Below, in pieces: positions 20,411 through 41,429 of a DNA stretch of 64,000 nucleotides. The notes below the pieces were generated by a model, which saw nothing but the letters and a program-made list of their open reading frames with translations, was not told the DNA's origin and searched no databases. A program made the position numbers and the translations under genes. The stretch spans positions 1-64,000 of the forward strand of contig NZ_BLAE01000033.1 in NCBI RefSeq assembly GCF_009687865.1, written 5' to 3'. The DNA comes from Acrocarpospora macrocephala (GTDB lineage: Bacteria; Actinomycetota; Actinomycetes; Streptosporangiales; Streptosporangiaceae). Position 1 is the stretch's first letter. Every line of letters starts with the position of its first letter.

Positions 20411-20923
20411 ATGACCATGGAAGACGGCACTTCAAAGTCCCCCGGTTACTGCGGGGATACCGATGGCGACTACGACGTTCTCCAGTGGGATACCCGGGAG
20501 GACTGCGAGGTCCGGCAGATTCTCGACCGGATCGCCGACAAATGGTCACTGCTGGTCATCGCCCTGCTGGACCAGCGCAGCCTGCGCTTCTCCGAACTGC
20601 GCCGCAGGATCGAGGGCATCAGCCAGCGCATGCTCACCCGGACGCTGCGCCAGCTGGAGCGCGACGGCCTGGTGAGCCGCACCGTGTATCCGGCCGTGCC
20701 GCCGCGCGTGGACTACGAGCTCACCCCGCTGGGCGTGACCTTGCATCACACCATCCGCGCGCTGGTCACCTGGACCGAGGAGCACCAGAACGAGATCGCC
20801 TTCGCCCGCGCGGCGTACGACGCCCGGGTGACGGCCGAGCAGGAGGCCGCGGAGCGGGACTCGGCGGAGCGGGACGCCATCGCCCGGGAGGTGCTCGCGG
20901 CGGGCCGGGCGAACACCGGCTGA
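20411..20923 (+). CDS. HxlR-family transcriptional regulator
   Basis: A 170-residue winged-helix regulator. Family signature: CEVRQILDRIADKWSLLVI, LRFSELRRRIEGISQRMLT and LRQLERDGLVSRTVYP, then YELTPLG. The N-terminal Cys (DTREDCEVRQ) is at the position that senses electrophiles or redox stress in many HxlR/HypR proteins. The C-terminal 30 residues are rich in Ala/Glu (EQEAAERDSAERD) and probably helical. It is divergent from the MFS pump and likely represses it through the inverted repeat at 20365-20393. The start could also be the ATG two codons downstream. Confidence 0.88.
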   Translation: MTMEDGTSKSPGYCGDTDGDYDVLQWDTREDCEVRQILDRIADKWSLLVIALLDQRSLRFSELRRRIEGISQRMLTRTLRQLERDGLVSRTVYPAVPPRVDYELTPLGVTLHHTIRALVTWTEEHQNEIAFARAAYDARVTAEQEAAERDSAERDAIAREVLAAGRANTG

Positions 20924-25695: not shown

Positions 25696-25872
25696 ATGGA
25701 TGTTGAGGTCAGAGGCCCGGCTCGGGAGGAGACGGCTGCCGCCGAGTCACCCGTGACCGAAGGGGCCAAGGGGAAGCTCTTCCACCGGCACGAGTGGCTG
25801 GAGATCGAGCGGATCGGGAACGTCGTCACCAGCCAGTGCCTGTGCGGCAAAAGCAAGACCCGCGTCAAGTAG
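25696..25872 (+). CDS. Small protein with HxH...CxC putative metal site
   Basis: A 58-residue protein. The first half is Glu/Ala/Pro-rich and likely disordered; the second half (FHRHEWLEIERIGN, then VVTSQCLCGKSKTRVK) holds HxH and CxC pairs that could form a zinc knuckle. ATG 25696 has an AGGGGGA site. It is the last gene before the protease/NTPase system and ends 39 bp before the palindromic operator, so it is not in the same transcript start but might be functionally linked. I do not recognise a named family. Confidence 0.6.
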   Translation: MDVEVRGPAREETAAAESPVTEGAKGKLFHRHEWLEIERIGNVVTSQCLCGKSKTRVK

Positions 25873-25910: not shown

Positions 25911-25966
25911 CTAGGGGTTTCCCTAGGCCGGATCCGGATCCGGCCGCACTCCCCCGCGCTTAACGT
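25911..25966 (+). promoter_or_regulatory. Promoter A of the protease/NTPase system (palindrome plus -10)
   Basis: Palindrome CTAGGG-GTTT-CCCTAG at 25911-25926, then exactly 34 bp, then TAACGT at 25961-25966 as a -10 element. The expected start point is near 25973 and the S8 peptidase ATG is at 25994. No good -35 is visible, so an activator bound at about -54 is likely. The same layout recurs at 29651-29706. Confidence 0.75.
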
Positions 25967-25993
25967 GGACCGCCACGAGCGGGGAGGTGGGCA

Positions 25994-27529
25994 ATGAGCA
26001 TGCCGGGCGATCCGGGCGGGGGCGGGCCGGAGATCCCCCGCGAGTACGGCGCGACGTCCGACGGAACCTCGCCGCGGGAACACGTCCCGGCCGCGCCCGA
26101 CCTGGTGGCCGACTCGATCATCTCGCGCCCGCTGATGGAGCGCATGGCGGTGGCGGAAGGCCGCCAGCTGGGTGTGGTGATCGAGCTGCGCACCTCCCAT
26201 CCGGGCGGCGTGCGCGGGGCGTACGAGCAGGTCAACGCGCTGGTCCGGGAAGTGGCCGGAACCGAGACGCGGCAGGTCGGGTCGTATCTGGCGGTGGCGC
26301 TGACCGCCGACGAGATCCGCGACCTGGTCGACCGGGACATGGCGAAGGGCCGCAGCCGCGCCGACGCGTCCACGCCGGGCGCGCCCCGCTGGTCGATCCA
26401 CCGGCTGTGGCCCAACTTCGAGGTCACCCCGCTCACCCACCGCAGCGTGATCACCACCAAGTGCGCCGCCGCGCACCGCACCTTCGAGGCCTCCGGCGAG
26501 GGCATCGTGTGGGCGGTGCTGGACTCGGGCATCGCCCCGCACGCCCATTTCGACCTGCATCGCAACCTGGAGGAGCTGCCCGGCATCCGGCATCGCAGCT
26601 TCGTGCCCGGCAAGACCCACGCCGAGGCCCTGCTCGACGAGCACGGCCACGGCACCCACGTGGCCGGCATCCTGGCGGGCGAGTCGATCAGCAAGGCCGC
26701 GCCGCTCATCGCCGCCGCCTGGTACCAGGACGAGCGCAACGCCATGACCGGGCAGCTGGACGTGCGCCGGCTGGAGGTCGAGTCGTTCCGCGGCATGGCG
26801 CCCCGCTGCCGCCTGCTGTCCTGCAAGGTGCTCCGCGACGACGGCACCGGCGACGTCACGGCCGTGCTGGCGGCCCTGCAGTACATCAACGACCTGAACG
26901 CGGGCGGGCGCGAGCTCAAGGTGCACGGCGTCAACCTGTCGGTCGGCTACCCGTTCGACCCCAGCTGGTTCGGGGCCGGGCTCAGCCCCGTCTGCCGCGA
27001 GGTCGACCTGCTGGTCCGCAGCGGCGTCGTCGTGGTGGTCGCGGCCGGGAACACCGGTTACGGCTTCGCCCAGGACACCGGCAGCAGGGCCGTACGGCTC
27101 GGCCTGGACATGACCATCAACGACCCCGGCAACTCCGACCTGGCGATCACGGTCGGGTCCACCTCGAACAGCCCGCACGTCAGCGGGGTGTCGTATTTCT
27201 CGTCGAAGGGCCCCACCGGGGACGGGCGGCCCAAGCCCGACCTGGTCGCGCCCGGCGAGCGCATCGTCAGCGCCGGTTCCGGCGCCCTGCTGCGGCGGGC
27301 CACCGACACCGTGAAGGACGCCATGTTCGTCGAGGACTCGGGCACGTCGATGGCCGCGCCGCACGTGTCCGGGGTGATCGCGGGCTTCCTGTCGGTGCAC
27401 CGCGAGTTCATCGGCCGTCCCCGGGAGGTCAAGGAGACGCTGATGCGCTCGGCCATCGACCTGGGCCGGGACAGGTCCTTCCAGGGCGCCGGGCTCGTCG
27501 ACGCCATGCGCGCCATCCAGCTGGTCTGA
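25994..27529 (+). CDS. Cytoplasmic subtilisin-like serine protease (S8)
   Basis: A 511-residue subtilase without a signal peptide or transmembrane segment, so probably intracellular. The triad is complete: Asp in AVLDSGIAPHAHF (about residue 175), His in HGHGTHVAG (about 219) and Ser in SGTSMAAPH (about 450); the oxyanion Asn is in VVAAGNTG. The first 160 residues (including MERMAVAEGRQLGVVIELRT and GSYLAVALTADEIRDLV) form an N-terminal domain that may act as an inhibitory propeptide or sensor. It is first in a two-gene operon with an alpha/beta hydrolase under promoter A. The shared promoter with the trypsin/STAND operon suggests it is an effector or processing enzyme of that system. Confidence 0.88.
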   Translation: MSMPGDPGGGGPEIPREYGATSDGTSPREHVPAAPDLVADSIISRPLMERMAVAEGRQLGVVIELRTSHPGGVRGAYEQVNALVREVAGTETRQVGSYLAVALTADEIRDLVDRDMAKGRSRADASTPGAPRWSIHRLWPNFEVTPLTHRSVITTKCAAAHRTFEASGEGIVWAVLDSGIAPHAHFDLHRNLEELPGIRHRSFVPGKTHAEALLDEHGHGTHVAGILAGESISKAAPLIAAAWYQDERNAMTGQLDVRRLEVESFRGMAPRCRLLSCKVLRDDGTGDVTAVLAALQYINDLNAGGRELKVHGVNLSVGYPFDPSWFGAGLSPVCREVDLLVRSGVVVVVAAGNTGYGFAQDTGSRAVRLGLDMTINDPGNSDLAITVGSTSNSPHVSGVSYFSSKGPTGDGRPKPDLVAPGERIVSAGSGALLRRATDTVKDAMFVEDSGTSMAAPHVSGVIAGFLSVHREFIGRPREVKETLMRSAIDLGRDRSFQGAGLVDAMRAIQLV

Positions 27530-27542
27530 AAGGGAGACTCCG

Positions 27543-28775
27543 GTGCGATTCCCGTACGCGAAGGTGCAGTTCCGCTCCACCGGCGAGCCGCACGACCCGG
27601 CCGAGCGGCAGCGGGCGCTGGACCTGGTCCGGGCGCCCGGCGTGACCGACATCCTGGTGCTGTCGCACGGCTGGAACAACGACATGGCGGCGGCCGAGGC
27701 GCTGTACCAGGACCTGGCCGCCAGCCTGGACAGCGTGCGCCGCCCCGGCGGGATGAACCTCGCCGTGATCGGCGTGCTCTGGCCCTCGATCCGGTGGGCC
27801 GAGCCGGGGCAGCTGGCGGGCGGCGGCCTCGGGGTGGACGACGGCGCGGCCCAGCTCAGGCGGGAGATCCAGGAGACGGTCCCCGACCCGGAGCTGGCGG
27901 CGGCCCTGGACGCGCTCGTCGGCGACCTGGACTCCGCCGCCGCGCAGGCCCGGTTCCTCGGCCTGCTGCGCGGCTCGCTGCCCGCCGTGGCGCCGGGCGA
28001 CGAGGAGCCGCCGCCCTCGCTCCTCACGGTGGGCGACGCCGGGACGGCGTTCTCGCTGGCCGGAGAACCGCTGCCGCTCGCGCTGCTGCCGGAGGCCCCG
28101 GGCGGGGCGGGCTCGATCGGCGGCGGGCTGGCGTCGTTCAGCGACGTCTTCCGGGCCGGGCGGCTGCTGCTCAACACGACGACGTACTTCACGATGAAGG
28201 AGCGCGCGGGAACGGTGGGGTCGACGGGGGTGGCCCGGCTGCTGAACGACCTGGCGACCGTGGCGCCCAACGTGCGGCGGCATCTGGCCGGGCATTCCTT
28301 CGGCGCCCGTCTGGTGACGGCGGCGGCACGACGGCACGCGCCATTGCACTCCATCTCGCTGCTGCAGGGCGCTTTCAGCCACTACGCGCTGTCCACCGAC
28401 TACGACGGCGACAAGGACGGCTTCTTCCAGGGTGTCCTGTCCCCCGGCCGCCTGACCGGGCCCATGCTGATCACCCACACGGCCAACGATCTGGCCGTGG
28501 GCATCGCGTACGCGGTCATCTCCCGCCTGGCCCGGCAGAACGCCTCGGCCGTCGGCGGCCCGGACGACACCTACGGCGGCCTGGGCCGCAACGGCGCCCT
28601 GCGCACCCCGCAGGTGACCGCGCCCCCTGACTCTCTCCTCGACGCCGACGCGACGTACGCCTTCCGCCCGGGAAAGGTCTACAACCTCCAGTCCGACACC
28701 TTCATCAAGAGCCACGGCACGGTCACCGGCCGCGAGGTCGCCAACGCCATGATCCAGGCCATGACTGTCAGGTGA
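27543..28775 (+). CDS. Intracellular alpha/beta hydrolase (lipase-like)
   Basis: A 410-residue alpha/beta hydrolase without signal peptide. Visible elements: oxyanion loop LVLSHGWNND near residue 40, nucleophile elbow AGHSFGARLV near 247, acid Asp in LITHTANDLAVG, and a likely catalytic His in IKSHGTVTG near the C-terminus. A large insert (about residues 85-215) with SLLTVGDAGTAF probably forms the lid. GTG 27543 follows GGGAGA by 5-7 nt and lies 13 nt after the protease stop, so the two are co-translated from promoter A. Substrate unknown; a membrane lipid is one possibility given the cluster's conflict-like make-up. Confidence 0.82.
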   Translation: MRFPYAKVQFRSTGEPHDPAERQRALDLVRAPGVTDILVLSHGWNNDMAAAEALYQDLAASLDSVRRPGGMNLAVIGVLWPSIRWAEPGQLAGGGLGVDDGAAQLRREIQETVPDPELAAALDALVGDLDSAAAQARFLGLLRGSLPAVAPGDEEPPPSLLTVGDAGTAFSLAGEPLPLALLPEAPGGAGSIGGGLASFSDVFRAGRLLLNTTTYFTMKERAGTVGSTGVARLLNDLATVAPNVRRHLAGHSFGARLVTAAARRHAPLHSISLLQGAFSHYALSTDYDGDKDGFFQGVLSPGRLTGPMLITHTANDLAVGIAYAVISRLARQNASAVGGPDDTYGGLGRNGALRTPQVTAPPDSLLDADATYAFRPGKVYNLQSDTFIKSHGTVTGREVANAMIQAMTVR

Positions 28776-28905
28776 AATATTCAGCGCTTCGCCGTCCTGA
28801 ACTGAGCGAACAGCCGCCTCCACACCAGGGATTTTGACGGCTGGCGGGCTAGACCGGACGATCCCGGCAGATGGGAACAGGCCGTTCCCGATCAGAGAGG
28901 ACATC

Positions 28906-29622
28906 ATGCGAAACGTCCTTCGGGCGGGCGCCGGGGCCGCCCTGGCCGCCCTCGTGTTCGCGTTCGGCTCCGCCGCCGCCGTGGCGGCGGTGGATACCTC
29001 GCCGCCGTCGAAACCGACCGGGCTGCGCGACAACTGCCTCGCCGACTACCCGGGTACGGCCTTCTGCTGGACCCCGTCCACCGACGACGTCGGCGTCACC
29101 GGCTATGACGTGTTCCGGCAGATGCCGGCCGGCTTCGTCAAGGTGGGCACGGCGCCCGCGACCCAGCTGCCGATGTTCGCCGAATCCGGGCTGGTCACCG
29201 GGCAGACGTACGTCTACCGGGTGCAGGCCAAGGACGCGGCCGGGAACCTGAGCGTCGTGTCCGACCCGGTCTCGGTGATCGCCCGGCAGGGCCTCCCCGT
29301 GCCCCCGTCCTGCCGGGTGGAGTACCTGACCAACACCTACAACAGCACCGGCTTCTTCACCCAGATCAAGATCTTCAACACCGGGTCGATCGCCGTCAAC
29401 TCCTGGACTCTCGCCTTCACCTTCCCCCACCCGGGGCAGCAGATCACCAACCCGTTCGGCGCCACCTGGACCCAGACCGGCGCCAATGTGACCGCCAGGA
29501 ACCTCCCGTGGAACGCGGTCATCCCCCCGGGCGGCAACGTCCAGATCGGCACCAACGGCACGCACACCAACGCCAACCCGGTGCCCGCCCAGTTCAGGGT
29601 CAACGGAGTGCTCTGCTCCTGA
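28906..29622 (+). CDS. Secreted FN3-CBM2 protein without catalytic domain
   Basis: A 238-residue exported protein: signal peptide 1-28, one fibronectin type III module (residues about 30-130; PPSKPTGLRDNC, TGYDVFRQM, YVYRVQAKDAAGNLS) and a C-terminal CBM2 (CRVEYLTNTYNSTGF to VNGVLCS, with a Cys pair at the two ends). No enzyme domain is present, so it can bind cellulose, xylan or chitin but not cut it. It sits between the two operons of the protease/NTPase system but does not share their operator, and its export makes a direct role in that system unlikely. ATG 28906 follows a GAGAGGA site. Confidence 0.85.
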   Translation: MRNVLRAGAGAALAALVFAFGSAAAVAAVDTSPPSKPTGLRDNCLADYPGTAFCWTPSTDDVGVTGYDVFRQMPAGFVKVGTAPATQLPMFAESGLVTGQTYVYRVQAKDAAGNLSVVSDPVSVIARQGLPVPPSCRVEYLTNTYNSTGFFTQIKIFNTGSIAVNSWTLAFTFPHPGQQITNPFGATWTQTGANVTARNLPWNAVIPPGGNVQIGTNGTHTNANPVPAQFRVNGVLCS

Positions 29623-29644
29623 GCCCACGATCCGGCGCCTCCCG

Positions 29645-29672
29645 TTAGCCCTAGGGATTCCCCTAGGGCTAA
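29645..29672. promoter_or_regulatory. Extended 12-bp inverted repeat around operator B
   Basis: TTAGCCCTAGGG (29645-29656) and CCCTAGGGCTAA (29661-29672) are exact inverted repeats with a 4-bp spacer, containing the 16-bp operator. It could also act as the transcription terminator of the upstream CBM2 gene, 23 bp after its stop codon. Confidence 0.6.
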
Positions 29673-29706
29673 CCCTGGGGGCAATTCGCGCGCGGGAATC
29701 TAACCT
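29651..29706 (+). promoter_or_regulatory. Promoter B of the protease/NTPase system (palindrome plus -10)
   Basis: Palindrome CTAGGG-ATTC-CCCTAG at 29651-29666, exactly 34 bp, then TAACCT at 29701-29706. This repeats the plan of promoter A (same arms, same 4-bp spacer, same 34-bp distance). The sequence between is not conserved, so the shared parts are under selection. It drives the four-gene operon starting at ATG 29731. Confidence 0.78.
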
Positions 29707-29730: not shown

Positions 29731-30735
29731 ATGGACTACTACAGCCAGCTGGTCACCGATCCCGATCTCCGCGCCGAGTTGCTCGACCGGTTCGACGAAC
29801 TCGCCGGCGCCGCCGCCGCGAAGGGCGGGCTCGAAGGGCTGGAGCGCCTGGAACCGCCCACCGTGGACGAGGCCGCGCGGGCGGTGGAGAGCATGACCGA
29901 GGGCACCTGGGTCCGGGACGACAGCGCCCTGGAGGCCATCATCCTGGCCTTCACCCGCCCGGTTTATCTGGTCCAGGACTCCACCTACACCTCCTCCGCT
30001 AGCGACTTCCCGGACAGCGTCGAGATCGCGAACCGCCTCGATAGCGCCCGCCCCGCGCTGGAACGTGCCATCCCCAGCGCCGGACGGGTCGATCTCCGCA
30101 ACCACCGCCTCCAGTGGGCGGGCACCGCGTGGATGGTGCGCGAGGACATCGCCGTCACCAACCGGCACGTGGCCGAGGTGTTCGCCCGCCAGAACGGCGA
30201 CGCGTTCGTGTTCCGCACGCATTTCGACGGCTCGATGACCAGGGCCACGCTGGACTGGCGCCGGGAGTACCAGCGACCGGCCGAGTCCCGCTTCCGGGTC
30301 GAGGAGGTGCTCTGGATCGAGCCGGACGGCTCCGCCGACGTGGCCCTGCTGCGCGTGTCCGCCACGGGCGAGGAAGGCGAGGCCCAGCCGCCGGTCATCG
30401 ACCTGATGACCGAGCAGGAGATCGCGGCGACGACCGCGGTGGCGGTGATCGGCTACCCCGCGCGCGACAGCCGGAACAGCGCGGACGACCAGCGGCGCCT
30501 CTTCGGCGACGTCTACGGCGTGAAACGCCTGGCCCCGGGCCAGATCACCACGGTGTCGGCGGACGGCCTGCTCCAGCACGACGCCACCACCCTCGGCGGC
30601 AACTCGGGCTCGGTCCTCATCGGCCTGGAGACGGGCAAGGCCGCCGCCCTGCACTTCGCGGGCCTGGAACATGTCGCCAACTATGCCGTGCAGGCGCACG
30701 TCATAGAGCGAATCATCCGGGAGCGGGCACGATGA
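29731..30735 (+). CDS. Cytoplasmic trypsin-like serine protease
   Basis: A 334-residue chymotrypsin-fold (S1/trypsin-like) peptidase without signal peptide. Triad: His in AVTNRHVAEVF (about residue 145), Asp in GSADVALLRV (about 202) and Ser in TTLGGNSGSVL (about 291). The N-terminal 115 residues are helical and acidic and match no domain I can name. It starts after a GGAGGAA site and overlaps the next gene by ATGA. It is first of four genes under promoter B. The lack of export and the pairing with NTPases argue for a regulated protease acting on cellular targets rather than nutrition. Confidence 0.87.
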   Translation: MDYYSQLVTDPDLRAELLDRFDELAGAAAAKGGLEGLERLEPPTVDEAARAVESMTEGTWVRDDSALEAIILAFTRPVYLVQDSTYTSSASDFPDSVEIANRLDSARPALERAIPSAGRVDLRNHRLQWAGTAWMVREDIAVTNRHVAEVFARQNGDAFVFRTHFDGSMTRATLDWRREYQRPAESRFRVEEVLWIEPDGSADVALLRVSATGEEGEAQPPVIDLMTEQEIAATTAVAVIGYPARDSRNSADDQRRLFGDVYGVKRLAPGQITTVSADGLLQHDATTLGGNSGSVLIGLETGKAAALHFAGLEHVANYAVQAHVIERIIRERAR

Positions 30736-32678
30736 GCTCGTGGTGGGAGGATCCCGGCACCGACTGGGGCACGGGCCGCCCCGGCCGCGTCGCCGACGTG
30801 CTCTCCCGCGCGTACGAGACGCCGCAGGCCATCCGCCCGCTGATCGAGCGCACCGGCCTGGAATGGCGGGCGGAGTACGCCGACGCCGCCGCCCGCACCA
30901 CCTGGATCATGATCCTGGCGCGGGCCGCGACCTCGGCCAGCGTGCTCGATCTGATGGCCGAGGTGCTCCAGGACCCCTCGTCCGAGACCTCCCACCACCC
31001 GCTGGAGATCCTCCTCGGCCCGGAACAACTCCGCGCCGTCCAGGGCAGGCGCGTGCTCTGGTACGGCGCCTCGATCACGCTGCTGGAATCCACGGCGGAG
31101 CCGCCCGACCCGGGCGACCGGCCGCTGGACGCGCTTGAGGCGATCACCTCCAGCGCCGCCGGTCTCAGCGACCCGCAGGCGTACATGCGGGCGATGAACG
31201 ACGCGGTGCGCCGCCTCGCCATGATCCAGGTGGGCGGCCGCCCGCGCGGCACCGGCGTGCTGGTCGGCCCCGACCTGCTCATCACCGCGGCGCACGTATT
31301 CGACCCGCGCGAGCTGCCGCCCCCGGGCCTCCAGGACGTGGACGCGGTCTTCGACTTCTTCGCCACCCCCCGCCGCAGCCCGGCCGAGACCGGCACGAAG
31401 GTGGCCGTCACCGAGTTCATCTGCGGCAGCCTGCCCACCCCGGGCGAGCTCGCCGGCAGCCGCGACTTCCGCGCGCCGCCGGACCGGCTCGACTTCGCCC
31501 TGGTCAGGCTGGCCGCCCCGGTCCCCGCCCCGGACGGATCCGCGCGCGGCCACTACCCCCTCAGCGACACCCAGTACGACTTCGCGGCCCAGGCCCCCCT
31601 GTGGGTGTTCCAGCACCCCCTGGGCGAGTTCCAGAAGTACTCCAAGATCTCAACGCCCACCAGGAACGCGGCCGGGACCCGCGTCCGCTACCGGTGCAAC
31701 ACCATGAACGGCTCCTCGGGCGGCCCGGTGATCGACGAACGCGGCACCCTGGTGGCCCTGCACCACTACTCCCCCGGCGACATCAACCAGGGCGTGCCGA
31801 TCTCGGCCATCGCCGCGATGGTGCGCTCCGGTCCGCACGCCGCGCTCCTGAACGCCGGCGCCGCCCCGCCCGCCCGGGCTCGCGCCGCCGACCCCTTCAG
31901 CGTCAGGGAACTCCTCGGCCGCCCGTTCGTGCACCGCGAGAACCTCCGCAGGTACGTCAGCGAGATGGCCGCCCCGACCGGAGGCAGGACCCTGGTGATC
32001 ACCGGTGCCCGGGGCAGCGGAATCACCTACTCCTACAGCCTGCTGGCCCACGTCGCCAGCCGATCCACGATCACGGAAAGCCTCCGCCAGGCCGCGCCCG
32101 CCGGGCTCGTCGCCTTCACGGTGAACCTGCGCCACTACGTCAACGTCCCGGTGGCCGAGCGCAGGCTGCGGATCATCGGCGACATCTGCGTGAACCTGGG
32201 CCTGACCGGCCCCCACGAGCCGATCGCGCAGGAGGCCCGCAACACCACCACGTTCAAACACTGGCTGCACAGCCGCCTGCGCCACTCCGACAAGCAGTGG
32301 TGGCTGTTCTTCGACAGCCTCGACGACGCGGTCGCGGCCGGGCAGGGCGGGGTCAACGAGCTGATCCACGCGATCATCGACCTGGCCCAGGATCCGCAGA
32401 TCCCGCTGCGGGTCGCGCTCGGCGGCCGGGACGCCGACAGGTTCGCCGACGGCGCCGACGCCTGGCCGCAGCGGGACACCGTCTCCGGGCTCAACGCCGC
32501 CGACGTCGAACGCTGGCTCCGCGCCCGGGCCGAGGACGAGGGCCACCACCTGGACGACGCCCGGCTGTCGGCCGAGCTCGCCTCGCTGTTCCCCGACGGC
32601 CAGCCGCCGCCGCTGCCCGCCCAGCTGGCGCCGCGCCTGCCGGCGGTGCTGGTCAGCCTGCTGGAAGGCGGCCGATGA
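30732..32678 (+). CDS. EAD1-like / trypsin-like protease / P-loop NTPase fusion
   Basis: A 648-residue three-part protein. Residues about 18-95 (VADVLSRAYETPQAIRPLIE, RTGLEWRAEYADAA, LARAATSASVLDLMAEVLQD) have the helical pattern of effector-associated domain 1 (EAD1). Residues about 160-380 are a trypsin-like protease: His in LLITAAHVFD, Asp in LDFALVRL and Ser in NGSSGGPV. Residues about 400-645 are an NTPase with Walker A GARGSGIT (about 424) and Walker B WWLFFDSLDD (about 525). There is no signal peptide. The fusion of adaptor, protease and NTPase is what is described for NTP-dependent bacterial conflict systems. The EAD1 call is by eye and should be checked by profile search. Confidence 0.8.
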   Translation: MSSWWEDPGTDWGTGRPGRVADVLSRAYETPQAIRPLIERTGLEWRAEYADAAARTTWIMILARAATSASVLDLMAEVLQDPSSETSHHPLEILLGPEQLRAVQGRRVLWYGASITLLESTAEPPDPGDRPLDALEAITSSAAGLSDPQAYMRAMNDAVRRLAMIQVGGRPRGTGVLVGPDLLITAAHVFDPRELPPPGLQDVDAVFDFFATPRRSPAETGTKVAVTEFICGSLPTPGELAGSRDFRAPPDRLDFALVRLAAPVPAPDGSARGHYPLSDTQYDFAAQAPLWVFQHPLGEFQKYSKISTPTRNAAGTRVRYRCNTMNGSSGGPVIDERGTLVALHHYSPGDINQGVPISAIAAMVRSGPHAALLNAGAAPPARARAADPFSVRELLGRPFVHRENLRRYVSEMAAPTGGRTLVITGARGSGITYSYSLLAHVASRSTITESLRQAAPAGLVAFTVNLRHYVNVPVAERRLRIIGDICVNLGLTGPHEPIAQEARNTTTFKHWLHSRLRHSDKQWWLFFDSLDDAVAAGQGGVNELIHAIIDLAQDPQIPLRVALGGRDADRFADGADAWPQRDTVSGLNAADVERWLRARAEDEGHHLDDARLSAELASLFPDGQPPPLPAQLAPRLPAVLVSLLEGGR

Positions 32679-35600
32679 TGGACCGCGACCTGGCCGAGAC
32701 CCTGCGCCGCCAAGCGGACTTCCGCGACGACCTGGCCCGCACCCCGATGGTGGAGCACCTGGCCCTGCTCGGCACGTTCAAGGCGGCCGACGTCAGCGCG
32801 GACGTGCTGCGCCTGCTCTGCGAACGCCTGCCCAGGGACGAGGCCATGCTCAGCGAGGGCCCGCGGATCGACGCCCTGGCGGCGATGCTCCGGCGCGGCG
32901 GCGCCGGAGAACCGGCCCGCGTGCGCGCGCCGCTCGACGACCCTCCCCCGACGCCGCTGCAGCGGATGCTCGACTCCTTCGTGCTCGACCTGCGGATCCC
33001 GGTGGCGGAGCGGGACGAGGACGAGCTGGTCGCCTCCATCAGCGTCTGGCGCTGGTTCACCGACGCGCTGGCCCTGGCCGGGCTGAGCGGCCAGGTGGCC
33101 GTGACCCCCGACCTGGACATGATCGAACGCCGCCTCTCCCTGCTCGACCTGACCCGGGCCGTCCGCACGCTCGTCAACGACGGCTGCTTCGGGCGGGAGC
33201 GCGAACTGGCCGCGCTCCACCGGCACGCCGACGCTCCGGGCCCCCGGTTCGCGACGATCGTGTACGGCGTCGGCGGGGTGGGCAAGTCCACGCTCATCGC
33301 CCGCTTCGTCATGGACCTCGCCGACCGCGGCCGCCCGTGGGCCTACCTGGACTTCGACCGCCCGACCCTCTCCTCCTACGACCCGGTGGTGGTGCTCAAC
33401 GACATCATCCGCCAGGTCTCCGTCCAGTTCCCCGACGACAAGCGCGTGCTGCGCCGCTGGCAGGACCTGGATCGCAGCGCGAAGGCCGGCGGCGGTCTTG
33501 AGACGTACGGCAGGGGGCTCTCCTACGAGGTGCTGGCGAGCTCGTTCGCCGGGACCGTGCGGGAGCGGGGCCTCGCCGGCCTCGTCGTGGTGCTCGACAC
33601 GTTCGAGGAGGTGGGCCGGGCGGACCGGTTCACGCGGGACAAGCTGCGCGAGCTGTTCACGCTGCTCGCCCACGAACTGCCGGACTTCCGGCTGGTCATC
33701 TCGGGCCGGGCTCCGGCGGAGACGTTCGGGCCCGCGACCACAATCCGGCGGCTGCACCTGCGACCACTCCCCGGCCCCGAGGCGGTGACCCTGCTGGCCG
33801 TGCTGACCGGCAGGGAAGCCGAGCGGGCCCAGCTCCCGGACCCCTTCGACCAGGCGCTCGGCGCCGAGATCGTCCGGCTGGTCGGCGGCCTGCCGCTGAC
33901 CCTCCGGCTGGCGGCCCGGGTCCTCGCGCGGGAGGGCGCCGCCGCCGTCACCGACGCCGCCGACCGCGCGCGCGTCCTGGACCGGGTCCGTACGGACTTC
34001 GTCCGCGGCTTCCTCTACCAGCGCATCCTCGCCCACCTCCGGGCGGGCAGCCCGGAGGACGGAGAGGCGCTCCGCCAGGTCGCCCGGGCCGCCATCGTGC
34101 TCACCAAGGTGACCCCCGAGCTGATCGAGCGCGTGCTCGTCCCCGCCCTGGATCCCCCGCCCGCCACCCCCGCGGAGGTGCTCCACCGGGACCTGGCCGC
34201 GGAGATGGCGTTCATCGAGGGCCAGGAGGGCGTGCTGCGCCTGCGCGAGGAGCTGCGGGGCCCGGCGCTCGCCGCGCTGAAATACGACGACCCCCAGCTG
34301 GTGGCCAGGATCCACGAGCGCGCCATCGCGTTCTACCAGGCCGAGGGGGGCGCGGCCGTGGACATCGCCTACCACCGCCTGGCCCGGGGCGAACCGGCCG
34401 CGGTCGTCGCCGCCGAGGCGGGCGAGGACGCGCTCCGCCTGCTCGAACCCTCGCTCGACGACTTCCCCGAGGTGTCGGCCAGGCTGATCCAGCAGGCGCT
34501 GGCGGGGACGCCCGTGCTGACCGCCGAGGTGGAGACGATCCGCTGGGAGCGCCGGACGCTCGCGGCCGTCGAGGTGGCGTTGCGCGCCGGTGAGCTCGGC
34601 CGGGCGCGGGCGCTGCTCGGCGAACGGGACGACCGCACCGAGTCGTCCCCGCTGTACCGCCTGGAATGCCGCCTCTACGAGGCGGAGGGCGACCTCGTCC
34701 AGGCCGTCGACTTCGCGCGGCGGGACCTGGCCGCCGCCACCGCCGCCGGTGACGCGGTCCGCTTCGCGGCGGCCGCCGTACGGGTCGCGGAGCTCGAGGA
34801 ACGGCGGGGCAGGCCGGACCAGGCCGCCCGCGGGCTGCGGGACGCGATGGCCGCCGACCTGCTCGGCGGGCATCCCGGGCTGCGGCTGGAACTGCTGCTC
34901 AACATCATGACCATCGAGGAGCGCGCCGGGCTCGGCGACGGCGACAGCCGCTGGACGCGCGAACTGGACGCGCGCGCCCTCCTCCAGCGGGCCGGGCCGC
35001 GCGCCGCCGAGGAGAACACCGGGCTCGTCCGGCTGCTGGCGGCGGCCCTCGGCGCGGAGGAACCGCGGTGGGTGGAGGCGGCCGCACGCCGGATCGGCCT
35101 CGGGCTGGTGGAGGATCGCGCCCTGGTCGCGGAGCTGGTGGCCGCGGTCGCCGCGTGGGATTCGGCCCAGGACGTGCCGGGCACGCTGCTGGCGCGGGCG
35201 ACCGGCACGACCTCCGCCGCCGACGCGCTGCCCAGCGCCTGGAACACCGCCCTGTCCGGGCTGGGCATCTATGCGGGGCCGCTGCTGCAGAGCCTGTGGA
35301 GCCTCGGGCCGCCCCCCGAGCCGGTGCGGACCGCGCTGCGGCGGATCTATCTGTGGTGGCGAACGCCGCAGGATCGCCCCGAGGCCGTGACCGGCGAGGT
35401 CCACTTCCTGGCGGAGACGCCACTCGACTGGTCCCGCGCCGAGGTCCAGGGGCTGGAACGGATCCTGTTCGATGCCTACCCGACGAGCACGCACCTGGCG
35501 TCGATCGCGGCGCGGGCGGGCCTCGACGTATCGGCGATCACGTGGGGACGGCTCGGGCGCCCAGCCCGTGACCTGCTCAGCCACGCGGACACGACGGGCA

Positions 35601-35737
35601 TGCTCGGGCCGCTGGTGACCGCCGTGCTGGCCGACTCGAGCGTGGCCGCGTTCCACTCCGAACTCGCACAGCTGGTCGGCGAGCGCTGGCTCGACGACCA
35701 CATGATCTCCCCTCAGACAGGAAGGGACAGCGGATGA
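32675..35737 (+). CDS. STAND-type NTPase with C-terminal EAD1-like domain
   Basis: A 1020-residue signalling NTPase. Residues 1-170 are a helical N-terminal region. Walker A is GVGGVGKST at 198-206 and Walker B is LVVVLDTFEE at about 303, followed by LVISGRAP and GGLPLTLRLAARVL, the pattern of STAND (NB-ARC/NACHT-like) ATPases. Residues about 540-880 are helical, TPR-like repeats (LYRLECRLYEAEGDLVQAVD; RVAELEERRGRPDQAARGL), probably the sensor. Residues about 926-1010 (ILFDAYPTSTHLASIAARAG, LLSHADTTGMLGPLVTAVLA) resemble EAD1 and match the N-terminal domain of the preceding protease. It overlaps that gene by ATGA. Likely role: ligand-triggered oligomerisation that recruits and activates the EAD1 protease. 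Confidence 0.82.
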   Translation: MMDRDLAETLRRQADFRDDLARTPMVEHLALLGTFKAADVSADVLRLLCERLPRDEAMLSEGPRIDALAAMLRRGGAGEPARVRAPLDDPPPTPLQRMLDSFVLDLRIPVAERDEDELVASISVWRWFTDALALAGLSGQVAVTPDLDMIERRLSLLDLTRAVRTLVNDGCFGRERELAALHRHADAPGPRFATIVYGVGGVGKSTLIARFVMDLADRGRPWAYLDFDRPTLSSYDPVVVLNDIIRQVSVQFPDDKRVLRRWQDLDRSAKAGGGLETYGRGLSYEVLASSFAGTVRERGLAGLVVVLDTFEEVGRADRFTRDKLRELFTLLAHELPDFRLVISGRAPAETFGPATTIRRLHLRPLPGPEAVTLLAVLTGREAERAQLPDPFDQALGAEIVRLVGGLPLTLRLAARVLAREGAAAVTDAADRARVLDRVRTDFVRGFLYQRILAHLRAGSPEDGEALRQVARAAIVLTKVTPELIERVLVPALDPPPATPAEVLHRDLAAEMAFIEGQEGVLRLREELRGPALAALKYDDPQLVARIHERAIAFYQAEGGAAVDIAYHRLARGEPAAVVAAEAGEDALRLLEPSLDDFPEVSARLIQQALAGTPVLTAEVETIRWERRTLAAVEVALRAGELGRARALLGERDDRTESSPLYRLECRLYEAEGDLVQAVDFARRDLAAATAAGDAVRFAAAAVRVAELEERRGRPDQAARGLRDAMAADLLGGHPGLRLELLLNIMTIEERAGLGDGDSRWTRELDARALLQRAGPRAAEENTGLVRLLAAALGAEEPRWVEAAARRIGLGLVEDRALVAELVAAVAAWDSAQDVPGTLLARATGTTSAADALPSAWNTALSGLGIYAGPLLQSLWSLGPPPEPVRTALRRIYLWWRTPQDRPEAVTGEVHFLAETPLDWSRAEVQGLERILFDAYPTSTHLASIAARAGLDVSAITWGRLGRPARDLLSHADTTGMLGPLVTAVLADSSVAAFHSELAQLVGERWLDDHMISPQTGRDSG

Positions 35738-36594
35738 CGACTCTGGTGTTCATCCACGGGCGTGGCCAGGAAGGCAAGAAGCCGGAGGTGCTGCTGCGGA
35801 GCTGGCGCGCCGCGCTCGCGGCCGGTCTTGTCGCGGCCGGGCAGGCCATGCGGCCGCAGGTCGCGGCGGTCATGCCGTACTACGGGAACGTGCTGCACAG
35901 GCTGGCCGGTGAGGCGGCCAGGCAGGGGCGGCCGCTCCAGCTGGAGAGCATGTCGGACGACGACCCCCTGGAGGCGCCGTTCCACCCGCACCTCACCGAG
36001 GAGGCGGGCGAGATCGAGCGACGCCTGATCATCGAGATGGCCGCCGCACGAGGCGGCCCCCTGCCAGAGGAGGGTCTGGCGGACCTGCTGTCGTGGGGGC
36101 CCGCCCGGAACGCCCTCACCTGGCTGTCCCGGCACAGCCGCCTGGACCAGGAGATCATCAAGGCGTTCCTGCAGGACGTGGCCGTCTACCTGAGCTACGG
36201 CCGGGAGCAGGTGCTGGCCACGGTCCGGGCCGAGATCCCGGCGGCGGGACCGATCGTGCTGGTGACCCACAGCCTCGGCACGGTGGTCGCCCGCGACCTT
36301 CTCGACGAGCCCGCGCTCCGGGACCGGGTCACCCTCTGGGTGACGGCGGGCTCCCCGCTCGGCCTGCCTTCCATCCAGCGGAACCTGCTGTCGAAAGGCG
36401 CGCACAATCCCGGCGTGCAATGGGTGACGGCGTACGACGTCAACGACATCGTGGCGCTCGGGCATCCGCTGGTGGGGGCGTGGGGCCGGCCGCTGGAGGA
36501 ACTGGAAGTCGACAACGGGGCGGAACCCCACGACATCGTGAAATACCTCTCCCACGGGAGTGTGGCGGGGCCGATCGCGCGGGCGCTGACCTGA
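35734..36594 (+). CDS. Intracellular alpha/beta hydrolase, last gene of system
   Basis: A 286-residue alpha/beta hydrolase. Oxyanion loop LVFIHGRGQEGKK at the N-terminus, nucleophile elbow VLVTHSLGTVVARDLL (Ser about residue 174), acid Asp in AYDVNDIVALGHPL and a possible catalytic His in KYLSHGSVAG at the C-terminus. No signal peptide. It overlaps the STAND gene by ATGA, so all four genes of operon B are translationally coupled. It differs from the 410-residue hydrolase of operon A, so the system has two distinct hydrolases. Similar small hydrolases occur beside STAND NTPases, where a lipase or esterase effector role is suspected; the substrate is unknown. Confidence 0.82.
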   Translation: MTTLVFIHGRGQEGKKPEVLLRSWRAALAAGLVAAGQAMRPQVAAVMPYYGNVLHRLAGEAARQGRPLQLESMSDDDPLEAPFHPHLTEEAGEIERRLIIEMAAARGGPLPEEGLADLLSWGPARNALTWLSRHSRLDQEIIKAFLQDVAVYLSYGREQVLATVRAEIPAAGPIVLVTHSLGTVVARDLLDEPALRDRVTLWVTAGSPLGLPSIQRNLLSKGAHNPGVQWVTAYDVNDIVALGHPLVGAWGRPLEELEVDNGAEPHDIVKYLSHGSVAGPIARALT

Positions 36595-38245: not shown

Positions 38246-38311
38246 ATCGGCCAGACCGATGGATCGCATCGGAAATGCGCGTTGGACTGCGGAATTGCCA
38301 GTTCCTACCGT
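38246..38311 (+). promoter_or_regulatory. Proximal LysR-type promoter P2 of the catabolic operon
   Basis: Composite operator at 38246-38272, 9-bp gap, TTGGAC at 38282-38287, 18 bp, TACCGT at 38306-38311. Expected start near 38318, giving a leader of about 44 nt before GTG 38362. The first half, ATCGG-N5-CCGAT, is an exact T-N11-A LysR box centred near -65. Confidence 0.82.
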
Positions 38312-38361
38312 CGAGACAACAAGCCGGCTGGGCCGGGCAGTCTCACGGAGGTCTACACGTC

Positions 38362-39849
38362 GTGATCCGCACTGGGAAGCAGTACATCGAGGGACTACGG
38401 GCGCCGCGCGAGGTGTACGTCGGCGGCGAGCGAGTCGTGGACGTGACGACGTATCCGGCGTTCCACGAGCCGATCCAGAGCTACGCCCGGCTGTACGACA
38501 TGAAGCACGACAGCCAGTACCAGGACATTCTCACCTACACGGAGGAGCCGGGCGGGGAACGCTACGACATCAGCTACCTCGTCCCGAAGAGCAAGGAGGA
38601 GCTGAAGGCGAAGGGCAGGGCGTACCACACGTACGCGCGGGCGTCCTACGGATGCCTGGGCCGAGGCCCGGAGTTCATGGCGGCGTTGATCGCCGGGATG
38701 TGGGAGAGCACGGACTGGTTCGAGCAGTGGGGCGAGGGCGGCGCCCAGAAGGTCGCCGACTACGTCCGCTACGTCCGGGACAACGATCTCTTCCTCACCC
38801 ACGCGCTCGGCAACCCGCAGTCAGACCGATCCAAGCCCTCCCACCAGCAGGCGAATCCGTACATCCACCTGCGGGTCAAGGAGGAGACCCCGGAGGGCCT
38901 GATCATTAGGGGCGCCAAGCAGCTGGCCACCGCCGCGCCGGTGACCGACGAGATCCTGGTGTTCCCCAACGGCCGCCAGTTCGGGCCGGGCGACGACGCG
39001 TACGCCCTGTGCTTCGCGGTTCCGACCACCACCCCCGGCGTGAAGATCATCTGCCGTGAGCCGCTGGTTCCCGAGAGCCGCAACGTGTACGACCACCCGC
39101 TCAGCTCCCGGTTCGAGGAGATGGACGCGCTGATCGTCTTCGACGACGTGCTGGTTCCGTGGGATCGGGTGTTCTTCTACAACAGCCTCACTGCGGCCAA
39201 CAACATGCGCTTCATGACCGGCGTGGCGGCGTTCTCCGGCCACCTGTCCGTCCACCGGGCCACGGTCCGCGCGGCGCTGACGGTGGCCACCGCGATGAAA
39301 CTGTGCAATTCGGTGAAGACCGACGTGTTCCCCAACGTCGGGGAACTCCTCGGCCGGCTGGCCGCGCTGTACAAAGCCCAGGAAGCTCTGCTGTTCCGGT
39401 GCGAGGAAGAGCCGAGGGTCAGCGAAACCGGCACGTACTGGGTCAACGGGGACGCGCTCAGCGCCTCCGGCCTGCTCTTCCCGGACTTCTACACGACCAT
39501 GCTGGACGTGATCAAGCGGACCGGCGCCGCCGGGCTCATGCTCACGCCCACGCTGGGCGAGTTCACCGGCGAGGTCGCCGACCTGGCCAACACCTACTTC
39601 GCCGGCGCCGACGACATGCCGGGCGTGGACCGGGTGCAGATCGCCAAGCTGGCCTGGGATCTGGCCGGGGACTCGGTCGGCCAGCGGCTCTCGCACTACG
39701 AGCGCTTCTACATCGGCGAGCCCATGTTCGTCGCCTCGTTCTTCGCCCGCTCGGCCGACATGGGGCTCGGCCGGGAACTGCTGGAGAACATCCTCGCCGA
39801 AGGCCGGGCGCTGCGTGACGCGGCCCTGGAGTCCCGGCCCGGCAGCTAG
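38362..39849 (+). CDS. FADH2-dependent phenol monooxygenase, HpaB type
   Basis: A 495-residue oxygenase component of a two-component flavin monooxygenase (4-hydroxyphenylacetate 3-hydroxylase family). Typical stretches: RTGKQYIEGLRAPREVYVGG, RASYGCLGRGPEFMAAL, FVPNGR-like VFPNGRQFGPGDDAYAL, DALIVFDDVLVPWDRVF and FAGADDMPGVDRVQIAKLAW. It ortho-hydroxylates a phenolic ring using reduced FAD from the next gene product. GTG 38362, 10 nt after CACGGAGG, is chosen because the ATG at 38275 lies upstream of promoter P2. It is the first gene of the catabolic operon. Whether the substrate is a hydroxybenzoate, protocatechuate or a hydroxyphenylacetate is not shown by sequence. Confidence 0.9.
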   Translation: MIRTGKQYIEGLRAPREVYVGGERVVDVTTYPAFHEPIQSYARLYDMKHDSQYQDILTYTEEPGGERYDISYLVPKSKEELKAKGRAYHTYARASYGCLGRGPEFMAALIAGMWESTDWFEQWGEGGAQKVADYVRYVRDNDLFLTHALGNPQSDRSKPSHQQANPYIHLRVKEETPEGLIIRGAKQLATAAPVTDEILVFPNGRQFGPGDDAYALCFAVPTTTPGVKIICREPLVPESRNVYDHPLSSRFEEMDALIVFDDVLVPWDRVFFYNSLTAANNMRFMTGVAAFSGHLSVHRATVRAALTVATAMKLCNSVKTDVFPNVGELLGRLAALYKAQEALLFRCEEEPRVSETGTYWVNGDALSASGLLFPDFYTTMLDVIKRTGAAGLMLTPTLGEFTGEVADLANTYFAGADDMPGVDRVQIAKLAWDLAGDSVGQRLSHYERFYIGEPMFVASFFARSADMGLGRELLENILAEGRALRDAALESRPGS

Positions 39850-39861
39850 CGGAGCCCCGCG

Positions 39862-40404
39862 ATGTCCCCCGATCGCGCCTACCGCGCCACCATGGGCCTG
39901 TTCGCCACCGGAGTGACCGTCATCACCGTCGGGCACCAGGGCGTCAGGCACGGTATGACGGCCAGTGCCGTGATGTCGGTGTCCCTGCGGCCGCAGTTGC
40001 TCGCGGTCGCGGTGGACAACCGGTCCCACACCAACGAGATGGTCCAGCGGGCCGGCCACTTCACGGTGAACATCCTGGCCGAGGGGCAGGCGGAGGTGGC
40101 GCGGCGGTTCGCCCGGCCGATGGCGAGGGAGGCCGAACTCTTCGGCGCGGCGCCGACCACGGTCGGCCCCGCCGGCGACCCCGTTCTGCCGGCGACACTG
40201 GCCCACCTGTCCTGCGAGGTCACCTCCGTCCACGAGGAGGGGGACCACACGCTCTATGTCGGACGTGTCACCGCGCTGTGGCGCACGCCTGAAGCGACCG
40301 CGCCGCTGATCTTCTACGCCGGCCGGTTCTGCTCCACCAGCTGCCGCGTCTGCATCGCCCGCGTCGACCCGACCGAAGCCCTGTACGCCCTGCACGGGGG
40401 CTGA
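39862..40404 (+). CDS. Flavin reductase component, HpaC type
   Basis: A 180-residue split-barrel flavin reductase that supplies FADH2 to the adjacent HpaB-type oxygenase. Family motifs: TGVTVITVGHQGVRHGMTAS, PQLLAVAVDNRSHTNEMV, GHFTVNILAEGQ and DHTLYVGRVTALW. It begins 12 nt after the oxygenase stop. The C-terminus carries three Cys (RFCSTSCRVCIAR), unusual for the family and possibly redox-active or metal-binding. Confidence 0.88.
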   Translation: MSPDRAYRATMGLFATGVTVITVGHQGVRHGMTASAVMSVSLRPQLLAVAVDNRSHTNEMVQRAGHFTVNILAEGQAEVARRFARPMAREAELFGAAPTTVGPAGDPVLPATLAHLSCEVTSVHEEGDHTLYVGRVTALWRTPEATAPLIFYAGRFCSTSCRVCIARVDPTEALYALHGG

Positions 40405-40442
40405 GCAGCCCGTCCGCACGGCGGAGGAAGAAAGGCACATTC

Positions 40443-41429
40443 ATGGCACAGTTAGTTCTCGGGCTCGGGGTCTCGCACACCCCCCAGATGAGCATGCCCA
40501 GCGACCTGTGGGCCTCGTACGCCAGGCATGACCGGAAGAACCCCAACCTCATCTACCGCCGCAAGAAGTGGGCCTACGAGGACCTCGTCGCGGCCAGGGC
40601 CGGGGACGGCATCGCCGAGCGGATCAACGAGGAGACCTTCTCGGCCCTGCACGCGCGAGCCCAGACCGCGGTGGACTCGCTGGCCGCCAGCCTCGCCGAA
40701 GCCGCGCCCGACGTCGTGGTGATCGTCGGCGACGACCACCACGAGATCTTCGCCGAGGACAGCATGCCCACGTTCGCCGTCTACTGGGGCGAAACCGTGC
40801 GGGCGATCCCGCCGGAGAAGTTCTGGTTCCCCGAGGTGGCGACGGCGGCCTGGGCGCTGTACGGCGAGCAGCCCGAGACCTACCCCTGCCACGCCCCGCT
40901 CGGCGAGCACCTGATCCGCGGCCTCAACGGTTCCGGTTTCGACGTGGCGCAGGTGCGCGCGCAACCGGAGGGCCAGTCCATCGGGCACACGGTGGTGCTG
41001 GTCCGCAACCGGCTCATGGACCGGGAGGCCGAACCGCTGCCGATGGTGCCGGTGCTGCTCAACACCTACTTCGAGCCGAACCGGCCGACCCCGGCACGCT
41101 GCTGGGAGCTGGGCAAGGGCCTGGCCGCGGCGATCGCGGCCTACCCGGAGGAGCTGCGGGTGGCGGTGATCGCCTCCGGCGGGCTGAGCCACTTCGTGGT
41201 GGACGAGGAGCTCGACCGCGCCGTGCTGAACGCGATGAAGGACCGCGACGAGGACGCCATCGCCGGGTTCTCCGGCGAGGACTTCGTCTCCGGCACCAGC
41301 GAGTCCATGGGCTGGCTGGCCGTCGGCGGCGCCTGCGCGAAGCTGGACATGGAGATCGTCGACTACATCCCGGCCTACCGCACCGAAGCGGGCACCGGCT
41401 GCGGCATGGCCATGGTGCGGTGGTCGTGA
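40443..41429 (+). CDS. LigB-type (class III) extradiol ring-cleavage dioxygenase
   Basis: A 328-residue non-heme Fe(II) dioxygenase of the LigB superfamily, the catalytic subunit fold of protocatechuate 4,5-dioxygenase and gallate dioxygenase. Iron ligands are likely His12 in GVSHTPQ, His in VGDDHHEIF (residues 99-100) and a downstream Glu; the acid/base His is in SGGLSHFVVDEEL. It opens an aromatic diol or triol between adjacent carbons. The following GalB-like and GalC-like genes point to a product such as 4-oxalomesaconate, which arises directly from gallate. A good GGAGGAA site precedes ATG 40443. Confidence 0.88.
   Translation: MAQLVLGLGVSHTPQMSMPSDLWASYARHDRKNPNLIYRRKKWAYEDLVAARAGDGIAERINEETFSALHARAQTAVDSLAASLAEAAPDVVVIVGDDHHEIFAEDSMPTFAVYWGETVRAIPPEKFWFPEVATAAWALYGEQPETYPCHAPLGEHLIRGLNGSGFDVAQVRAQPEGQSIGHTVVLVRNRLMDREAEPLPMVPVLLNTYFEPNRPTPARCWELGKGLAAAIAAYPEELRVAVIASGGLSHFVVDEELDRAVLNAMKDRDEDAIAGFSGEDFVSGTSESMGWLAVGGACAKLDMEIVDYIPAYRTEAGTGCGMAMVRWS

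Follow-up and report, generated by a model that had tools for sequence, protein, structure and literature searches.

A promoter element of three half-sites shared by two protease operons in Acrocarpospora macrocephala, with an LAL-type protein as candidate regulator

The window analysed here, the whole stretch of 64,000 nucleotides from the Acrocarpospora macrocephala genome, carries two putative operons on the forward strand. The first begins with an S8 (subtilase) peptidase of 511 aa (25994..27529; Pfam PF00082, 2.2e-39; PADLOC 'subtilase', 3e-49), followed by a protein with a GHSFG motif (27543..28775) that was recognised by synteny, matched no Pfam family and was labelled by us as an alpha/beta-hydrolase. 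The second encodes a trypsin-like peptidase of 334 aa (29731..30735; Pfam PF13365, 2.6e-13; PADLOC 'nacht' model, 6.3e-21), a second trypsin-like peptidase of 648 aa with a C-terminal extension (30732..32678; PF13365, 1.8e-14), a STAND-type NTPase of about 1021 aa (32672..35737; start chosen by us, label taken from the Pfam AAA_16 match at 5.4e-12), and a PGAP1-like alpha/beta-hydrolase of 286 aa (35734..36594; Pfam PF07819, 1.4e-4, under the family cut-off). These products resemble conflict or defence proteins, and a defence function may be suggested on that basis. The main text of Kaur et al. 2020 (PMC7159879) describes related operons that combine several trypsin- or S8-type peptidases with STAND NTPases, often in multicellular bacteria. 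In NucA-peptidase conflict systems a NucA endonuclease sits beside trypsin peptidases; Pfam detected neither a NucA nor an EAD domain among the products of either operon here. Promoters and palindromes are nowhere mentioned in that main text, and no comparable element for actinomycete protease/STAND operons is named in the titles or abstract openings of the papers listed.

Ahead of the S8 gene lies a small forward-strand ORF of 58 aa with a C-terminal CxC motif (25696..25872), whose conservation at this place in four genomes was shown by tblastn; it had no family match and does not stand under the palindrome described below. The closest regulator gene observed ahead of the S8 promoter is of the HxlR type (20411-20923; Pfam 3.5e-27) and is divergent from an MFS transporter gene. 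The earlier note had seen no obvious regulator gene nearby, which holds for LuxR-type proteins, none being found in the scan of about half the window's gene calls, and fails for this HxlR-type gene. On the other side, an aromatic-degradation set consisting of an HpaB hydroxylase, a flavin reductase and a LigB dioxygenase (38275-41429) adjoins the trypsin/STAND operon. Rfam had no match in the window or in the eight loci scanned alongside it.

Each operon is preceded by a copy of the palindrome CTAGGG-N4-CCCTAG. The copy CTAGGGGTTTCCCTAG (25911..25926, forward strand; window and genome scan) supplies the first two half-sites of the S8 promoter, and the copy CTAGGGATTCCCCTAG (29651-29666, forward strand) of the trypsin promoter lies inside a 30-bp perfect inverted repeat with 13-bp arms (29644..29673). 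Both are followed at 34 bp by a predicted -10, TAACGT (25961..25966) and TAACCT (29701..29706), with predicted starts near 25973 and 29713. Apart from the 30-bp repeat, this is the layout that the earlier note had reported, coordinates included. Its further statement that the window holds no third copy is correct for exact copies, of which there are two; a copy with one mismatch overlaps the trypsin-side palindrome at 29663-29678. In the genome under study (G000; 12.1 Mb, 166 contigs), the whole-genome scan that the note had proposed confined the exact element to these same two sites, while the reversed pattern, used as a control, occurred three times. With up to two mismatches, the window held 3 matches against 1.89 expected, a count reached by 31 of 100 shuffles. 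When the genome was scanned for palindrome-N34-TAACNT with up to three mismatches, the only matches were the two window sites and the first of them read in reverse, and the reversed control was richer (12 and 10 matches versus 2 and 1 for the pattern), so copy number alone is no argument. What is striking is the exactness of the two copies, their separation of only 3.7 kb, and their common position 34 bp ahead of a TANNNT.

We then considered the spacing across the family Streptosporangiaceae, where the extended pattern CCTAGGG-N4-CCCTAGG identified 27 sites in 22 of 297 genomes. For the spacing count we used 29 sites, 5 from Acrocarpospora and 24 others, excluding a one-mismatch site in G003 and a second site in G047 (L168). 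TANNNT, with a density of 0.00069 per base in the window, was present at offset 34 for 11 of these sites and at offset 35 for another 9, a total of 20/29, whereas all remaining offsets from 0 to 100 gave 8 matches across the 29 sites in both orientations. The proportion was 17/26 when three sites associated with GntR-like genes were left out and 9/12 when counted per gene group by our own grouping. Read in one orientation, each of the five exact sites in the five Acrocarpospora genomes examined (G000 to G004) is followed by TANNNT at 34 or 35 bp, and the motif occurs at none of the remaining offsets between 0 and 100. No shared -35 was seen between the S8 and trypsin promoters. The sequence supports the earlier proposal of an activator-type site near -54 of the predicted start, common to the two operons, and the spacing is conserved ahead of S8.

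The 34 bp downstream of each palindrome had been described as unrelated, which did not stand: they contain a third half-site at bases 7-12 after the palindrome. It reads TCCGGA in the S8 promoter (25933..25938, forward strand), a degenerate form of the family consensus CCCTGA, and CCCTGG in the trypsin promoter (29673..29678, forward strand). In an alignment of 26 sites, this CCCTGA-like block has one invariant C and one invariant G, and the pattern [CT]C[CT]G[AGT] scored 8.2 of 11 gene groups at the offset of bases 7-12 and at most 1.0 at any other. The starts of the half-sites are 10 and 12 bp apart, which would place all three on roughly the same face of the helix. ComA-type sites of Bacillus consist of inverted hexamers separated by N4 with a third, downstream half-site; the arrangement here is the same, whereas sequence, regulator class and phylum differ. 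A profile of the 26 sites recovered six strong sites in the five genus genomes (E 4.4e-8 or better among the best 150 candidates per genome), all of which belong to the profile's own sites by construction. Beyond reverse readings of the same palindromes, nothing scored below E 0.02 among these candidates, and neither the genome scans nor the profile found a further strong site in G000. Three weak genus matches (L100, L108 and L092; E 0.02-0.14) were rejected, as the promoter layout was not seen in them.

Read instead as RNA hairpins, the palindromes would terminate the small ORF and the CBM2 gene lying upstream of them, a reading that we regard as highly improbable. In its favour, the trypsin-side repeat begins 22 bp past the CBM2 stop codon and has a folding energy of -29.4 kcal/mol (z -4.6), good folding was also seen at the S8 sites of G002 and G003 (z -7.1 and -3.5), and the outer arms vary between loci with complementarity kept. 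However, the S8 sites of G000 (z -1.5) and G004 (z -1.7) fold poorly, with 16 and 13 of 200 shuffles folding at least as well, and a terminator predicts neither the fixed 34-35 bp to TANNNT, nor the third half-site, nor one core at unrelated genes. For the trypsin palindrome, a double role as regulator site and terminator hairpin is possible.

Conservation was assessed by searching for the S8 protein at E 1e-60, which detected it in four of the five Acrocarpospora genomes and in one of the 145 other family genomes searched; a scan of named genomes with the S8 alignment returned only A. pleiomorpha (96% to S8) and A. corrugata (85%). All four genus copies have the small ORF and the palindrome ahead and the GHSFG protein behind. 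The site is kept in all four, with spacings of 34, 34, 34 and 35 bp: besides the G000 site, it is exact in G002 (34 bp) and G004 (35 bp) and has one mismatch in G003 (CCAGGG, 34 bp). The genus member without S8, G001, lacks the site as well. The alignment of relatives proposed in the earlier note thus bore out both palindrome and spacing at the four genus S8 loci and did not do so further afield. There, its stated ground for refutation, the same genes without the palindrome, was partly encountered: CTAGG is missing from the 1.5 kb to either side of a distantly related S8-hydrolase pair in G084 (51% over residues 126-508), and G199 has no palindrome upstream of its relative of the first trypsin protein. 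That relative (57%) is the only further one found among 297 genomes at E 1e-25, and no parts of the trypsin/STAND operon were found within the 19-kb stretches around S8 in G002-G004. The S8 site is thus common to the genus carriers, and the trypsin operon would seem to have been added locally, with the same element.

The element is not dedicated to these two operons, as had been supposed, since it also occurs at other genes in the family. What lies behind the family sites includes genes for S8, trypsin and S41 peptidases, for an FHA protein and for a 759-aa protein that neighbours a CHAP gene, as well as short unassigned stretches. The S41 peptidases follow seven sites (two assigned by Pfam, five by resemblance), of which six have CANNNT at 34/35 and the other has nothing there. 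In G004 (L121, 9489 onward; G004:C10), an exact palindrome, N34 and TACCCT precede an 80-aa hydrophobic protein that we label holin-like, which had no Pfam or NCBIfam match. Three sites with a GC-rich centre (L045, L046 and L053) precede helix-turn-helix proteins of 83-88 aa, labelled GntR-like by us, and have TATCGT 35 bp downstream; the third half-site is missing from its usual place, and these sites may be a separate system. Class-wide, the palindrome with an AWWT centre was found in 4 of 394 genomes, the two outside the family having no TANNNT at 34/35. The element, its spacing, its third half-site and its recurrence at unrelated genes are direct observations.

Regarding the protein that would bind the element, the closest operator in sequence is that of PimM, a PAS-LuxR regulator, given as CTVGGGAWWTCCCBAG in the portions seen of PMC9774167, PMC6448028 and PMC4700089. 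Like the element here, it is a 16-bp palindrome with CTAGGG/CCCTAG arms around an A/T-rich centre; each window site departs from it by one mismatch, at position 7 for the S8 site and at position 10 for the trypsin site, and the G004 S8 site fits it fully. G000 encodes at least one PAS-LuxR protein (G000:C20, PAS_4 and GerE). These points made a PAS-LuxR regulator a strong lead, which was weakened by missing co-occurrence. Among the best nine candidates per genome, PAS-LuxR proteins at E 1e-8 were found in 18 of 297 genomes, 3 of the 22 with sites versus 15 of the 275 others (p 0.14); G002 and G003 had none despite S8 and the site, whereas G001, which has neither, had a match. That the genes do not track the sites argues against PAS-LuxR as the binder. 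In addition, the portions seen of those papers place PimM sites at -35 and describe no third half-site, whereas the sites here lie 34-35 bp ahead of the predicted -10. We therefore consider binding by a PimM-type regulator unlikely.

An LAL (MalT-like) regulator is the likeliest binder, judging from gene content and position. As a query we used a G004 protein, chosen since its gene adjoins a site, on a genome set taken as identical for the site, PAS-LuxR and LAL searches. At E 1e-70, and among the best three candidates per genome, LAL matches were found in 56 of 297 genomes, 16 of the 22 with sites versus 40 of the 275 others (Fisher 1.1e-8), a correlative result in which related genomes are not independent and bigger genomes carry more sites and more LALs. 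Within genus g4, for which 38 genomes were picked by eye from the site listing, the corresponding figures were 9/14 and 3/24 (p 0.0016). Six of the 22 site genomes had no LAL match at this threshold, and 40 genomes, G001 included, had a match without an exact site.

Linkage was also observed directly. Two of the seven site regions opened (G004 and G089) hold an LAL beside the site, and the two proteins, both with AAA_16 and GerE, share 44% identity over 893 aligned columns. Among the 30 LAL loci listed, four contain the exact palindrome, namely that of the query itself (G004) and those of G047, G089 and G113 (one other genus); in all four the LAL match lies 1.2-1.4 kb from the site, with TANNNT at 34. 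Since the query was picked beside a site and two of seven regions held an LAL, the evidence for linkage, the query apart, comes from a single genus. In a tree of 40 rows, ten of them added from site genomes only, the LALs of G000, G002, G003 and G004 (C25) form one clade with support 100/100, and in each of these genomes the gene lies behind a sigma-factor gene (Sigma70_r2; the ECF label is ours). This sigma factor was set aside as a polymerase partner, the S8 and trypsin promoters showing no shared -35. The G000 gene ends with its contig (C123) near query residue 716, and no DNA-binding domain is seen in the part present. The sigma-factor gene directly followed by the LAL is seen at L165 3-2809 (G000:C123) and at L155 (G004:C25), and both assemblies break at about the same LAL point. 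No palindrome was present in the loci fetched around the G000, G002 and G003 LAL genes.

The predicted position of the third half-site would also fit an LAL. Its end lies about 35 nt ahead of the predicted start, a MalT-type placement with respect to that predicted start. For Actinoplanes, the part of PMC7567727 available gives a MalT motif (TCATCC-N5-GGATGA) that ends 34.4 +/- 1.0 nt before the start. MalT promoters, including those of E. coli, have a regulator of the LAL class and a motif that covers the -35 and ends about 34-35 nt upstream of the start; with the predicted start and the candidate regulator, the present promoters would resemble them in both. They differ in half-site sequence, the MalT box GGA(T/G)GA not matching the CCCTAG/CCCTGA half-sites here, and the present promoters have an extra upstream palindrome and proteases and a STAND protein as targets. 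Because the third half-site would lie where the Actinoplanes motif ends, MalT-like activation was taken as the likeliest mechanism.

A different LuxR/NarL-type regulator, or one of another family, could instead bind the element, the LAL correlation then reflecting shared descent and genome size; this is possible, and we hold it to be the lesser prospect. Inverted hexamers suit GerE proteins generally, and the G000 genome has at least 124 GerE matches; the site genomes without an LAL match and the GntR-like gene behind three sites would fit as well. Against this stand the LAL genes within 1.4 kb of a rare site in two genera.

Our preferred reading, to which we assign a probability of roughly 0.55, is that a LuxR-type/LAL activator on three half-sites co-activates both operons, so that one regulator probably switches both protease operons on together. 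Each operon would be transcribed from a promoter that depends on an activator and lacks a recognisable -35. With the -10 beginning at -12, the palindrome would span about -62 to -47 and the CCCTGA half-site about -40 to -35. The regulator, a MalT-like LAL with a STAND-type ATPase and a C-terminal GerE domain, would act as an ATP-dependent oligomer, occupy the three half-sites on roughly one DNA face and recruit RNA polymerase to the TANNNT -10. An unspecified signal would thereby let it co-induce the S8/hydrolase pair and the trypsin/trypsin/STAND/hydrolase operon. From the sequence patterns above we infer binding, activation, the transcription starts and the choice of LAL in G000. More tentatively, there may be a regulon in Streptosporangiaceae in which an LAL STAND-ATPase directly switches immunity-like protease, STAND and small membrane-protein modules via the three-half-site promoter. 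If true, a sensor ATPase of the NLR kind would act through transcription to arm other effectors that resemble NLRs. The switching-on of actinomycete protease/STAND conflict operons appears little studied; a rare, recognisable element, taken together with a candidate class of regulator, opens the question to testing, and it provides a marker for further targets.

Finally, six family loci from several genomes (L035, L036, L040, L042, L044 and L054) have a similar stretch behind the site, a short ORF or RNA with no Rfam match, which ends in a GC-rich hairpin. One of these, L036, adjoins a convergent gene that we label DJ-1/PfpI-like.
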